From Chelatococcus sp. HY11 (lineage in GTDB: Bacteria; Pseudomonadota; Alphaproteobacteria; Rhizobiales; Beijerinckiaceae): DNA of 64,000 bases. This document shows, one piece after another, positions 43,022 to 61,707 of the stretch. Where the stretch lies: positions 3,340,001-3,404,000 of the forward strand of contig NZ_JAHBRX010000001.1 of the NCBI RefSeq assembly GCF_018398335.1, read 5' to 3'. The position numbers and the translations under genes are program-made. Each line of letters opens with the position of its first letter. Positions within the stretch are counted from its first letter, which is position 1. The notes beneath the pieces are model-generated. The model saw only the letters and a program-made list of their open reading frames with translations, was not told the origin of the DNA and searched no databases.

Positions 43022-43037
43022 TGTCTCACGTGAAACA
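43022..43037. promoter_or_regulatory. parS-like centromere site 1 (ParB binding)
   Basis: TGTCTCACGTGAAACA matches the widely conserved parS consensus TGTTTCACGTGAAACA at 15 of 16 positions (C for T at position 4). It lies between the REP-like element and the hslU stop, in non-coding DNA, about 17 kb from the putative origin. A second 15/16 match is at 57407-57422. Confidence 0.72.
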
Positions 43038-57273: not shown

Positions 57274-57879
57274 TCAGTCCCGTCGCTCGCTTGTCCGCGC
57301 CATGATGTTAGCAATGATCACGTCGATCTGAGCTTCCGCCTCCGCCAATCCGCGCCCGGTGTCCACAATGAAATCCGCCCGTCGCCGTTTCTCGGCGTCG
57401 GGAAGTTGTTTCACGTGAATCATCGCGAATCGTTCCGGCGTCATGCCCGGGCGCGCCAGAACCCGCTCACGCTGGATTTCGGGCGATGCGGTCACCACCA
57501 GAACCGCGTCGCAGTCCTTCTCCGCGCCCGTCTCATAGAGAAGCGGAATATCGAAGACCATCAGCGCCGCACCAGACCGCCGCGCCTCTTCCAGAAGGGC
57601 GTCCCTGTCCGCCCGGACGAGCGGGTGAATGATCTTTTCCAGTCTGGCCATACGCTCAGGATGGCCGATGACTTGAGCACCGAGCTTTGCCCGGTCAACC
57701 GCGCCGTCGGTCGTGGTGCCCGGAAAAGCCTCCTCGACCAGGGGCGCCGCCGCACCCCGATATAAGCGGTGAACCGCCTCGTCGGAATCATGTACGGGTA
57801 TTCCCCGTGCCCTGAACATCGCGGCCGTGGTGGACTTGCCCATGCCGATCGAGCCGGTGAGGCCAAGGATAAAGGTCAT
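57274..57879 (-). CDS. coaE: Dephospho-CoA kinase
   Basis: 201 residues from ATG 57879 (GTG 57888, overlapping the aroE stop, is an alternative). P-loop [13 protein letters not shown] at the start, [12 protein letters not shown] and the [20 protein letters not shown] region are CoaE motifs. Final step of CoA synthesis. The segment coding IHVKQLP contains a parS-like site. Confidence 0.93.
57407..57422. promoter_or_regulatory. parS-like centromere site 2 (ParB binding), inside coaE
   Basis: TGTTTCACGTGAATCA matches TGTTTCACGTGAAACA at 15 of 16 positions (T for A at position 14), including the perfect TTTCACGTGAA core. It lies within the coaE coding sequence about 3 kb from the putative origin. 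Intragenic parS sites are common near bacterial origins. Confidence 0.72.
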
Positions 57880-57884
57880 ACCGC

Positions 57885-58754
57885 TCACGCCGCCGGATAG
57901 TGCCGCAGAACGTCGGCCTCGATATGATCCCGCAGCCTCGGCGTTACGCGGGGCAATATCCCGAACCAGCGCTCAAAACCTGGAACCGCCTGATGCAGAA
58001 GCATGCCAAGCCCATCTACACCGAGAATGCCGCGCGTCCGTGCCTGGGCCAAGAGCTCGGTCTCGAGGGGAACATAGACGATATCATTGACGACGGCGTT
58101 GACCGACAACCCTGAAAGGTCGATCGCGAGCCGGTCCTGGCCGAACATGCCGAGCGAGGTGGCATTCACGAGAAGCCTGATCTGCGGCAGAAGCTTTCCG
58201 ATATCCTGCCAGGGCGTCACTTCCACTTGGCCGTTGGATGAACCTTTGAACCGCTCCGCCAGAGCTTCCGCCCGGCCGGAGCTGCGATTGGCGATCACCA
58301 CGCGTTGGACGCCCCGGGTCAGCAAAGCATAGACCACAGCCTTGGCGGCACCACCGGCGCCCAGAACCAATGCGACCTCCGTGCGGGCATCCCAGCCCGG
58401 CGCGCCTTCGTCCAAATTGCCGAGAAAACCCGCGACGTCGGTATTGTCGCCGCAGAGCTCACCTTCCTCGTTCAACCAGAGCGTGTTGGCCGCACCGAGA
58501 GCCACGGCGGTATCACTGAGATGAACGATGTGAGGGACGACCGCTTCCTTGTGTGGAACCGTGACATTCGCCCCGACGTATCCTCGCTCCGTCAGGTTCG
58601 TCACAAAGGCGGCCACATCGTCTGGCGCCACATCCACCTTCTCATAGGCACCGGCCAACCCATGCTCCAGGAGCCAGTGGCCATGAATAAGCGGCGAGCG
58701 GGAATGACCGATGGGATGGCCGATAACACAGGCCTTGGGCAGAGTAGCTGACAT
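57885..58754 (-). CDS. aroE: Shikimate dehydrogenase
   Basis: 289 residues. Shikimate-binding [17 protein letters not shown], catalytic Lys/Asp in [10 protein letters not shown] and GDNTDVAGF, and the NADP-binding [15 protein letters not shown]. Fourth step of the shikimate pathway, feeding the trp genes at 20 kb among others. ATG 58754; upstream in-frame codons overlap maf. Its stop lies next to the coaE start. Confidence 0.95.
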
Positions 58755-58767
58755 CGGTCGGTTCCTA

Positions 58768-59388
58768 TCAAGCGAGCACGGCTTCGCGGCGCAACGCCGG
58801 AAGGATCGAGAGCAGGGGCAGACCGAGAATGGTGAAATGATCCCCGGTGATCGCCGTGAACAGGTGGACACCCAGCCCCTCGAGCTGATAGCCACCCACG
58901 CTGCGAGTCACTGCTTCCCCTGCGGCTGCGAGATAGCGCGAGACGAATGCCGCGTCCATGGCGCGCATGGTGAGCGCGGCACTTGATACGGTCTTGAAGA
59001 CGATCTCTCCATCCCGCGCCAGCGCCGCTGCGGCATGGAGATGATGCGTGCGTCCGGCGAGATCCATCAACTGGCGATGCGCGGCCTCCCTGTCGCCGGG
59101 CTTGGAGAAGGATGTCCCCTCACAATCCAGCGTCTGGTCTCCTCCAAGCACGAGCCGCCCCGGATGGCGTTGGCTGACCGCAAGCGCTTTGGCGCAGGCA
59201 AGGCTCAAGGCCACATCTCGTGGCGAGGCGCCGGCCGCCTTGAGTGGCGCCTCGATAGCGCGTTCATCGACCGCCGGATCCTCCGTTTCCACGGGAATTC
59301 CCGCCGCATCGACGAGAGCGCGCCGTGTCGCGCTGGTTGATGCCAGGATCAGCGGCGCGGGCGAGAGCCAGAGGTTCGACGCTATCAT
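58768..59388 (-). CDS. maf: Maf-family nucleotide pyrophosphatase
   Basis: 206 residues. N-terminal LILASTSATRRALVDAAGI is the Maf signature and GGDQTLDCEGTSFSKP holds the catalytic Asp. The protein SVGGYQLEGLGVHLF motif matches the YhdE/YceF group. Members hydrolyse dTTP, UTP or modified nucleotides; which is not visible here. ATG overlaps the ppsR stop (ATGA). Confidence 0.92.
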   Translation of the reverse strand: MIASNLWLSPAPLILASTSATRRALVDAAGIPVETEDPAVDERAIEAPLKAAGASPRDVALSLACAKALAVSQRHPGRLVLGGDQTLDCEGTSFSKPGDREAAHRQLMDLAGRTHHLHAAAALARDGEIVFKTVSSAALTMRAMDAAFVSRYLAAAGEAVTRSVGGYQLEGLGVHLFTAITGDHFTILGLPLLSILPALRREAVLA

Positions 59389-60215
59389 AGGGCAATGAAC
59401 TTCAAACGATGATCGCGGTGCAGCTCGATGATCGTCGCCGCCGTCTCCTCGATGGAGCGGCGTGTGACATCGATCACCGGCCAGTTGTTTCGGGAACACA
59501 GGCGGCGCGACTGGGCTATTTCCTCCGCTACCATATCGCGATCCACATAGGCGGAATCTTCGTCCGCGCGGAGGCTGAGCAGGCGGTTGCGGCGGATTTC
59601 CACAATACGCTCGGCTGTCGCGATCAGCCCGACGATCAAGGGCTTGCGTGCCTCCATCACCTGCGGCGGTACGGGGACGCCCGGCACGAGGGGGATGTTG
59701 GCTGTCTTGATACCGCGATTCGCCAGATAAATGCTGGTCGGGGTTTTTGACGTTCGGCTGACGCCGAGCAGCACTACGTCCGCCGCATCGACATCATCCG
59801 CCATCTGCCCATCGTCATGCATAAGCGTGAAATTCATCGCCTCGATGCGCCGGAAATAATCGGCATTCAGCGTATGCTGGGCGCCTGGGCGCGCCTGCGA
59901 TGCCATGCCCAGATAGGACTCGAACAGCCGCTGGACGGGATCGAGGACGTGGAGGCAGGGAGAACTCGCCGCCGCGCAGGCCGCTTCCAACATCGCAGCG
60001 AGATCCGGCTCCACCAGGGTGTAAAGGACGATACCCGGAGCGACATCGATCTCCGCGATGACCCGCTCCAGCTGCGCCTTGGATCGCACCAAGGGATAGA
60101 CATGCTCGATCGCCGAGATCCCCTCGTATTGGGCGGCTGCGGCACGGCTGACCGCGATGAGGGTCTCACCGGTCGAATCGGATACGAGATGAATATGGAA
60201 GTAGCTGCGACTCAA
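59385..60215 (-). CDS. ppsR: Pyruvate, water dikinase (PPDK/PEPS) regulatory protein
   Basis: About 276 residues, DUF299 family. P-loop-like HLVSDSTGETLIAVSRAA and GVSRTSKTPTSIYLANRG are its signatures. Acts as bifunctional ADP-dependent kinase and Pi-dependent pyrophosphorylase on PPDK or PEP synthase. The likely start is TTG 60215, since relatives begin just before YFHIHLVSDS; an ATG at 60272 is the alternative. It is the RP001-type gene that flanks the Caulobacter origin, divergent from hemE. Confidence 0.9.
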   Translation of the reverse strand: MSRSYFHIHLVSDSTGETLIAVSRAAAAQYEGISAIEHVYPLVRSKAQLERVIAEIDVAPGIVLYTLVEPDLAAMLEAACAAASSPCLHVLDPVQRLFESYLGMASQARPGAQHTLNADYFRRIEAMNFTLMHDDGQMADDVDAADVVLLGVSRTSKTPTSIYLANRGIKTANIPLVPGVPVPPQVMEARKPLIVGLIATAERIVEIRRNRLLSLRADEDSAYVDRDMVAEEIAQSRRLCSRNNWPVIDVTRRSIEETAATIIELHRDHRLKFIAL

Positions 60216-60642
60216 GGGTTTTTCCCGATCTTCCTGCGCCGGACGAAGCGGACGGCCGCCACGCCAGGCCATCTGACAGCCAAGTGGATGAAGCGTTGAC
60301 GGCTGTGGAGAACTCCAGCCCGCACCAAGGACCGCCGCCACACTGTGGCTTGAGTAGCCCGAGCGATCAACAGCGAGCTTCCTATGGACGGATTCCACCG
60401 GGGTTGGATCCCGTCAACGGGGATAGTCCCGACTCAATCACGCCGCAATCGTTAACAAACGATGAAGATTAACGGTTTGTTAAGATATGCGGCGGCTCTT
60501 CCGCCCGTTCATCCATCCCCCACCCTGGCGAGCAATCTGGGGACGGCTTGTGGACGGCCTTGGCGCATGTGTCATGCCCTGACCAGTAGAAACAACAGAA
60601 TCTAGACTCTAAAATAAGATTAGATTTGAAGAGAGAGATGGT
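60216..60642. other. Putative chromosomal replication origin (oriC) between ppsR and hemE
   Basis: 427 bp between divergent ppsR and hemE. It contains one exact CtrA box TTAA-N7-TTAA (60469-60483), a 9-bp inverted repeat TTAACAAAC/GTTTGTTAA (60452-60460 / 60475-60483), a 1-mismatch DnaA box TGTGGAGAA (60304-60312), weaker candidates (AGTGGATGA 60283-60291), four GANTC motifs (60391, 60431, 60598, 60605) and an AT-rich stretch (about 60590-60629) beside hemE. The Caulobacter origin lies between these same two genes and is CtrA-repressed. Origin activity is inferred, not shown. Confidence 0.68.
60469..60483. promoter_or_regulatory. CtrA binding box TTAA-N7-TTAA
   Basis: TTAACGGTTTGTTAA: exact half-sites TTAA with the 7-nt spacing required by the master regulator CtrA. 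It is the only exact match I noticed in the window, and it lies in the putative origin about 160 nt upstream of hemE. The Caulobacter origin carries several such sites. Confidence 0.75.
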
Positions 60643-61707
60643 GTGACCAGCGTCCTGCAAGCCTCCCAAAGCCAGCACTCCCCTATCCTCCGGACGCTCT
60701 CCGGGGAAACGATGACCCCTCCTCCTCTCTGGATGATGCGCCAGGCCGGGCGTTATCTCCCGGAATATCGCGCTCTGCGCGCGGAAGCCGGATCGTTTCT
60801 CGACCTCTGCTACACCCCCAGCCTCGCCACCGAGGTCACTCTTCAGCCCATCCGTCGGTTCGGCTTCGACGCCGCCATCCTGTTCAGTGATATCCTGGTC
60901 GTGCCGCACGCGCTCGGGCAGGATCTGTGGTTCGTCGAGGGCGAGGGACCACGGCTCAAGCCGGTCGCGACGACGAAGGACCTTGCGGCGCTGCGCGAAG
61001 ACCTCGATCCTGAGAAGGTTGGAGCGGTCCTTGAGACCGTCTCACGGGTGAGAGCCGCATTGCCGCGCGAGACGGCCCTGCTTGGTTTCTGTGGGGCACC
61101 GTGGACGGTCGCGACCTATATGGTTGCCGGCAGAGGGACGCCAGACCAGGCGCCGGCGCTTGATCTCGCCGCGCGGGATCCCGTGCTCTTCAGGGCGATC
61201 ATCGACCGCCTGGTCGCGCAGTCGACGCGTTATCTGGTTAGCCAGCTCCAGGCGGGCGCGGACGCGGTCCAGATCTTCGACAGTTGGGCCGGCGCGCTCA
61301 TCAGTGACGAAGCGCTCTACCGCCGGTGGTGCCTGGAGCCGATCGCGCGGATCGTCGACGGCGTCCGCGCCGAGGTTCCCGGGGCGCGGATCATTGGCTT
61401 TCCGAAGGGCAGCGGACCTTTCTATCCGCTTTTTGCTGGCGAGAGCGGGGTCGATGCGGTGGGATTGGACCAGGGTCTGGGATTGGACCAGGCTCGCGCC
61501 GTTCAGGCTATTCGGCCGGTGCAGGGCAACCTCAGCCCAGAAGTTCTTCTGTCAGGCGGCACAGCGCTTGACCGGGCTATCGATTTGATCCTGGAGGCGC
61601 TCGGCGGGCGTCCCCATATCTTCAACCTTGGCCATGGCATTCTGCCGCAGACCCCGATTCCGCATGTTGAAAGGCTCGTCAAGCGGGTGCGCGGCGGGTT
61701 AGGTTGA
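60643..61707 (+). CDS. hemE: Uroporphyrinogen decarboxylase
   Basis: 354 residues. PPLWMMRQAGRYLPEYR and GFCGAPWTVATYMVAGRG are the two HemE signatures; the active-site Asp is in the AAILFSDILVVP segment. Decarboxylates uroporphyrinogen III to coproporphyrinogen. GTG start with GAGAGAGA upstream. It starts the hemE-hemJ pair and is divergent from ppsR across the putative origin. Confidence 0.96.
   Translation: MTSVLQASQSQHSPILRTLSGETMTPPPLWMMRQAGRYLPEYRALRAEAGSFLDLCYTPSLATEVTLQPIRRFGFDAAILFSDILVVPHALGQDLWFVEGEGPRLKPVATTKDLAALREDLDPEKVGAVLETVSRVRAALPRETALLGFCGAPWTVATYMVAGRGTPDQAPALDLAARDPVLFRAIIDRLVAQSTRYLVSQLQAGADAVQIFDSWAGALISDEALYRRWCLEPIARIVDGVRAEVPGARIIGFPKGSGPFYPLFAGESGVDAVGLDQGLGLDQARAVQAIRPVQGNLSPEVLLSGGTALDRAIDLILEALGGRPHIFNLGHGILPQTPIPHVERLVKRVRGGLG

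Follow-up and report, generated by a model that had tools for sequence, protein, structure and literature searches.

The 427-bp gap between ppsR and hemE (positions 60216-60642) is, with hardly any room for doubt, the replication origin (oriC) of the main chromosome of Chelatococcus sp. HY11, contig C1 (4.62 Mb), and taken as a whole it is best explained, and likely so, as an origin in which a central CtrA/IHF-like site gates DnaA-driven unwinding. The window, i.e. the whole stretch of 64,000 nucleotides that was analysed, corresponds to C1:3340001-3404000; the genome comprises 6.95 Mb in six contigs, C1 being 4,623,370 bp long, and positions without prefix are those of the window. The gap extends from the conserved start of ppsR to hemE. 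Its left border is ppsR (DUF299, COG1806; 59388-60215, minus strand; PF03618, 310.2 bits), which adjoins the gap in relatives too, and its right border is hemE, coding for uroporphyrinogen decarboxylase (60643-61707, plus strand; PF01208, 356.5 bits). The Pfam matches confirmed that these genes diverge from the gap, as had been described earlier from the letters of the DNA. A UPF0093 gene and rho lie beyond hemE, and a Maf gene flanks the gap on the left. A position between hemE and COG1806/DUF299 is the feature that defines the alphaproteobacterial hemE/COG1806 origin, according to the definition given in PMC1914354.

The assignment of oriC to the gap is based on a switch of strand composition, a cluster of parS-like sites, an opposite switch about half way round the chromosome, the conserved ppsR/hemE gap, and the much worse fit of the alternative at dnaA; the earlier note's proposal that the gap is oriC was borne out in this way. 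Polarity was sampled in 58 stretches of 20 kb from C1 and three from the window, using hexamer strand preferences trained solely on 1.3-3.0 Mb and on the part from 3.7 Mb round to 1.0 Mb, with 3.06-3.65 Mb excluded. Among the held-out 20-kb stretches, nine of 12 to the left of 3.40 Mb were negative and seven of eight to the right were positive. The cumulative minimum of hexamer polarity over a contiguous 280 kb was located at 60852, and keto skew, which involves no training, was lowest at 60853. The skew switch anticipated in the earlier note was therefore found by these two measures but not by GC skew alone, whose minimum (28418) lies approximately 32 kb left of the gap, and for this reason GC skew is regarded as a weaker marker here. 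An opposite switch was detected at 1.02-1.10 Mb, the half-way point from 3.4005 Mb being 1.09 Mb, with a training split that presupposed a terminus around this place. A dif-like site was not found when the genome was searched with a dif-like pattern allowing up to 2 mismatches. Skew was also analysed in four relatives, and a clean switch at the gap was observed only in G012, with none in G022, G016, and G054. During these analyses a low-GC "island" at C1:2.40-2.42 Mb was rejected, as the approximately 10 kb at C1:2400001-2410000 are masked sequence, in which none of the four bases is given; this stretch had been outside the hexamer training.

Five parS-like sites with at most 1 mismatch were found in the whole genome, all of them within 27 kb (C1:3383022-3410442), and the backward control pattern gave none. 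Two are inside the window (43022-43037 and 57407-57422) and three outside it (C1:3408362, C1:3410302, and C1:3410427), each with 1 mismatch. The site at 57407 is located inside an ORF (57274-57888) that, judged by its sequence, is a putative coaE.

In many bacteria oriC adjoins dnaA, which in this genome is at C1:3250837, about 150 kb from the gap. A true origin elsewhere, for instance beside dnaA, would be compatible with the displaced GC-skew minimum and with the lack of a cluster of strong DnaA boxes in the gap. However, the best block of a change-point likelihood analysis started at C1:3400001, at the gap, and the dnaA position was 14.9 log units worse; the parS-like sites cluster round the gap; and near dnaA there is one one-mismatch DnaA box, which is no better than what the gap contains. 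We consider an origin away from the gap extremely improbable. A DnaA-box cluster test was also tried, and it did not single out the gap.

Regarding DnaA sites within this origin, several clear DnaA boxes were not found in the gap, which contains one box with 1 mismatch, one with 2, and otherwise weak hexamers. The former, the left DnaA box TTCTCCACA (60304-60312, minus strand), had been described in the earlier note as TGTGGAGAA at 60304; it is present there with 1 mismatch, but alone it is not significant in the window. The window contains six one-mismatch boxes against 2.97 expected, a number reached by 6 of 100 shuffles, and for that reason the left box by itself is no evidence. A one-mismatch or perfect DnaA box occurs at a similar place in many relatives. 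Further to the right, two DnaA-like hexamers, TGGGGA and TGTGGA, are arranged in tandem 11 bp apart (60538-60554, minus strand); the reverse complement of the first, TCCCCA, is the W-box published for the Caulobacter origin Cori (PMC4285127). The N5 spacing between both hexamers was found in 11 of 30 gaps of the window's family (four of them from the window's genus), and any other spacing from N0 to N15 in 0-2. They are followed by a run of A-centred trinucleotides resembling DnaA-trios (GAC CAG TAG AAA CAA CAG AAT; 60581-60601, plus strand), which was counted without a control. Tandem weak boxes followed by such a run recall the BUS, composed of DnaA boxes and DnaA-trios; the spacer here is approximately 26 bp, in contrast to the peak at 10-13 bp reported for the BUS in PMC8287927, and the trio letters are degenerate.

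The centre of the gap contains a perfect CtrA box, TTAACGGTTTGTTAA (60469-60483, plus strand), with the sequence pattern TTAA-N7-TTAA. As had been claimed, the box is present, and it is the sole exact match in the window, where 0.01 would be expected (100 dinucleotide shuffles). The box lies within a hyphenated inverted repeat (60441-60494) that had been described as one of 9 bp; the 9-bp core is real, but the repeat is larger, with arms of 20 nt (60441-60460 and 60475-60494) that are 80% complementary. Across the genus (four species) the CtrA box is identical and the inverted repeat nearly unchanged. The gap had also been said to contain only one CtrA box. There is one perfect box, but also a further, degenerate one, TTAACAAACGATGAA (60452-60466, plus strand), whose TTAA is exactly 17 bp upstream of that of the perfect box. 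A second TTAA at this distance was found in 7 of 37 box loci from four lineages, in a set from which five near-identical loci had been left out and in which the genus was counted four times; any other offset within 70 bp occurred in at most 3. The box neither overlaps nor is close to a DnaA box, since the nearest DnaA-like hexamer starts 55 bp past it. The genome encodes a CtrA orthologue (423.8 bits, cut-off 350), and binding of CtrA at 60469-60483 is predicted with good confidence.

Genome-wide, exact TTAA-N7-TTAA was not enriched, with 25 occurrences in 6.95 Mb against 38 of a reversed control pattern. Position was analysed for the 19 of the 24 other exact boxes that are on C1, and 18 of these fall outside called ORFs. 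By Pfam names, a clear CtrA regulon was not found among 18 genes adjoining 12 other exact boxes; these comprised ftsK, polysaccharide and envelope genes, and transporters, five having no Pfam match. One of these boxes (C1:3431597-3431611) is directly upstream of an ftsK-like gene.

In order to compare the same gap in relatives, as the earlier note had suggested, 60 genomes, including that of the window, were searched, and a HemE match was obtained in 59, G037 being the exception. Fifty-eight were examined, comprising every one of the 36 from the window's family and 22 of the 24 from other families of the order. This set was not selected for the box and contained one genome per genus, except for four of the window's genus. 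Where ppsR was not in reach (6 of 36 loci in the family, 5 of 22 in the others), the locus was set aside. The exact box recurred in 20 of 30 family gaps (23 of 36 when loci without ppsR were counted) and in 6 of 17 gaps of the other families (7 of 22 including such loci). Among the 30 family gaps, the TTAA halves stood at any other given spacing from N2 to N14 in 0-2, N13 (6 gaps) being the exception; seven other half-sites at N7 were likewise found in 0-2. Position was conserved as well: the box is 175-250 bp before codon 15 of hemE in 17 of the 20 family loci, the others being at 68, 288, and 355 bp. Among 51 named relatives with ppsR beside hemE (out of 80 loci), the gaps, 22,151 bp in total, contained 16 boxes and the flanks (323,893 bp) none.

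Ten of the 30 family gaps lack the exact box, and in nine of these the usual place does not contain a box with one mismatch either. Degenerate remnants of the box in these ten gaps were considered and not borne out, as there was one one-mismatch box at N7 versus 0-3 at control spacings. Box presence was then mapped on a quickly built ppsR tree, from which two loci of one genome with a short ppsR had been left out; of its 97 rows, 41 carry the box and some are near-identical. Counted on the tree, the box was present in 30 of 44 rows of a clade that comprises the window, Methylobacterium, Methylocella, Chelatococcus composti, and Enterovirga, and in 11 of the 53 rows outside it. It was present in 0 of 17 rows of a Rhizobiaceae-type clade (Mesorhizobium, Ochrobactrum, Shinella). 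The distribution on the tree requires at least 17 changes and is compatible with gain as well as with loss.

The recurrence of the box across a whole family of origins is the new part of these results. No report of it in Beijerinckiaceae or Methylobacterium origins was present among the matches listed from the open-licence literature; since the search covered open-licence papers only, it may have been mentioned before in other papers. Specialists on Cori state in a review that CtrA sites are not seen in non-Caulobacter origins, with Rickettsia prowazekii as a possible exception (PMC4468827), and predicted CtrA sites in Rickettsiales origins are listed in a Wolbachia paper (PMC1914354). A spacing-specific box in two thirds of the family origins, with Methylobacterium among the tree neighbours, contradicts that statement of the review. 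Methylobacterium is a laboratory genus, which makes a single dual CtrA/IHF site as a replication gate testable, and the presence and absence of the box within one order provides a natural series for the gain and loss of origin control.

A functionless box could have been retained through the inertia of a slowly changing region, and large portions of the gap are indeed conserved within the genus. Across genera, in contrast, the letters round the box share little (a 26-locus consensus is mostly blank), yet the halves and their spacing recur. In addition, single-base shuffles of 77 gaps, a set that mixes named and unnamed loci, some of them near-identical, gave 0.41 expected boxes against 35 seen. 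Mere inertia is thus very improbable.

The perfect box coincides with an IHF-like site. The gap contains a single stretch within 1 mismatch of the IHF consensus WATCARNNNNTTR, namely TAACAAACCGTTA on the minus strand of the box; having 1 mismatch, it is a putative IHF site. The core of the box agrees in 10 of 12 letters with the published Cori IHF 12-mer TAACGCTCTGTT, and the box of relative G024 contains this 12-mer letter for letter. In a nonredundant set of 36 boxes, with the genus kept once, an IHF-like spacer was found in 14 against 1 in 16 expected (binomial 1.4e-8, assuming equal base usage). The remaining 24 boxes of this genome include 6 that have it as well, so that this spacer may belong to CtrA boxes generally. 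These matches would likewise be expected if the element were a site for IHF or a different DNA-bending protein and looked like a CtrA box only because it is palindromic: the only close consensus match of the gap falls on the box, and more than a third of the boxes share the spacer. Nevertheless, the IHF consensus does not require both TTAA halves at N7, and yet this spacing is the preferred one (20 loci versus 0-2, with N13 in 6); the spacer letters differ between loci, in boxes that had been chosen by pattern; and 22 of the 36 boxes lack the IHF-like spacer. A bending-protein site without a role for CtrA is therefore improbable, and a dual CtrA/IHF-like site is preferred.

On the right side of this central site, the AT-rich patch that had been placed at about 60590-60629 corresponds to the lowest-GC 40-mers of the window (60587-60630) and is the candidate unwinding region. 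The four GANTC (CcrM) sites that had been noted are also present, at 60391-60395 and 60431-60435 and, as a pair within the patch, at 60598 and 60605 (60598-60609); the mean density of the window would give 0.66 in 427 bp. The genome encodes GcrA and a RAMA-domain CcrM-like protein, and in Caulobacter methylation of Cori is described as needed for a new round of replication (PMC2217572). In the 30 family gaps, the zone 110-40 bp before codon 15 of hemE contains 54 GANTC sites against 7.2 in single-base shuffles, with at least one in 27 gaps; seven other split palindromes occur there 1-14 times, and in the remainder of these gaps GANTC amounts to 72 against 39.4. Extended to 97 gaps, near-identical rows included, the zone contains 181 sites in 82 loci against 20.4 expected, an approximately ninefold excess, whether the box is present or not.

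Since the gap also serves as promoter region for two divergent genes and the box ends 160 bp before hemE, the box and the GANTC sites could be promoter elements of hemE (or ppsR) within oriC, with CtrA and GcrA-CcrM timing expression and not replication. Promoter activation by CtrA within Cori has also been proposed for Caulobacter, according to the review mentioned above (PMC4468827). Genomes in which hemE is elsewhere bear on this alternative. From 29 named loci without ppsR near hemE, 24 were taken and 23 genomes searched, and ppsR was found in 17, with no ppsR match in the other 6. An AT-rich 40-mer (GC 0.225-0.325) starts 333-390 bp before ppsR in 17 of 17, and a count of GANTC in 500 bp upstream of each gene was higher for ppsR than for hemE in 16 of 17. 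By title 11 of the 17 are Bradyrhizobium, so these genomes are not independent, and their ppsR gap is a putative origin. As AT patch and GANTC stay upstream of ppsR where hemE has moved, the AT/GANTC element is a ppsR-side element not tied to hemE expression, and a promoter role for ppsR is still compatible. The exact CtrA box was found in 0 of these 17 genomes within 700 bp on either side; therefore the comparison bears on the GANTC/AT element and not on the box. An exact box does occur within 800 bp at five of the 29 hemE loci without nearby ppsR, and the 17 genomes include none of these five. Altogether, a promoter function in place of a replication function is unlikely, though it is the foremost competitor of the reading that we prefer, namely that the site gates replication.

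According to this preferred reading, DnaA would bind the left box and the tandem weak hexamers beside the AT-rich, CcrM-marked patch. Phosphorylated CtrA and IHF would compete for the central site, and occupancy by CtrA would exclude IHF. With IHF excluded the DNA would stay unbent, the left DnaA box would not be joined to the tandem hexamers, and unwinding would be delayed until CtrA is removed. The GANTC pair in the patch may report whether the origin has just been copied. Repression of initiation by CtrA through the box is somewhat more probable than its absence, and that such repression acts through exclusion of IHF is proposed tentatively. The earlier suggestion that CtrA gates the origin in this lineage too finds its support in comparison, i.e. 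in the spacing-specific box of the family gaps and the CtrA orthologue. The accompanying suggestion that control may differ from that in Caulobacter agrees with the one perfect and one degenerate box, neither of which overlaps a recognisable DnaA box; because of this lack of overlap, CtrA would not displace DnaA directly, unlike in Caulobacter. In Caulobacter with all five CtrA sites weakened, near-normal cycling with mild perturbation but sensitivity to antibiotic pulses is reported in PMC4468827, and therefore the effect of a single box at an origin, too, may become visible only in stressed cells.

More generally, Beijerinckiaceae-type origins of the Hyphomicrobiales might possess a minimal switch consisting of one central dual CtrA/IHF site and a CcrM-marked unwinding patch, old in the 44-row clade and repeatedly lost, and absent both from the Rhizobiaceae-type clade and from the 17 mostly Bradyrhizobium gaps of the hemE-elsewhere genomes; we hold this generalization to be nearly an even question. 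If it is true, origins under CtrA control would extend far beyond Caulobacter, and throughout the order the licence to fire may depend on how the unwinding patch is methylated.

Sinorhizobium meliloti and Brucella abortus belong to the same order as this genome. Their origins differ from the one described here: that of S. meliloti is reported to be without a CtrA motif and unbound by CtrA (PMC4433202), and CtrA is reported not to bind that of B. abortus (PMC2877005). The box count of 0 of 17 in the Rhizobiaceae-type clade agrees with both reports. The origin of Hyphomonas neptunium is alike in that a CtrA site identified by ChIP-seq adjoins it (PMC7200025), a likeness by description and not by origin sequence; this bacterium is placed in the Caulobacterales (PMC8116508). 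Compared with Cori of Caulobacter crescentus, as it is described in the sources cited, the Chelatococcus origin has one perfect and one degenerate CtrA box in contrast to five, no CtrA box that overlaps a recognisable DnaA box, and no G-box TGATCCACA found in the gap. Both origins share the location between hemE and COG1806/DUF299, the TTAA-N7-TTAA motif, weak hexamer DnaA sites of the W-box type, and an AT-rich patch; the CtrA site that overlaps an IHF site in Cori has a putative counterpart here in the box with its IHF-like match.
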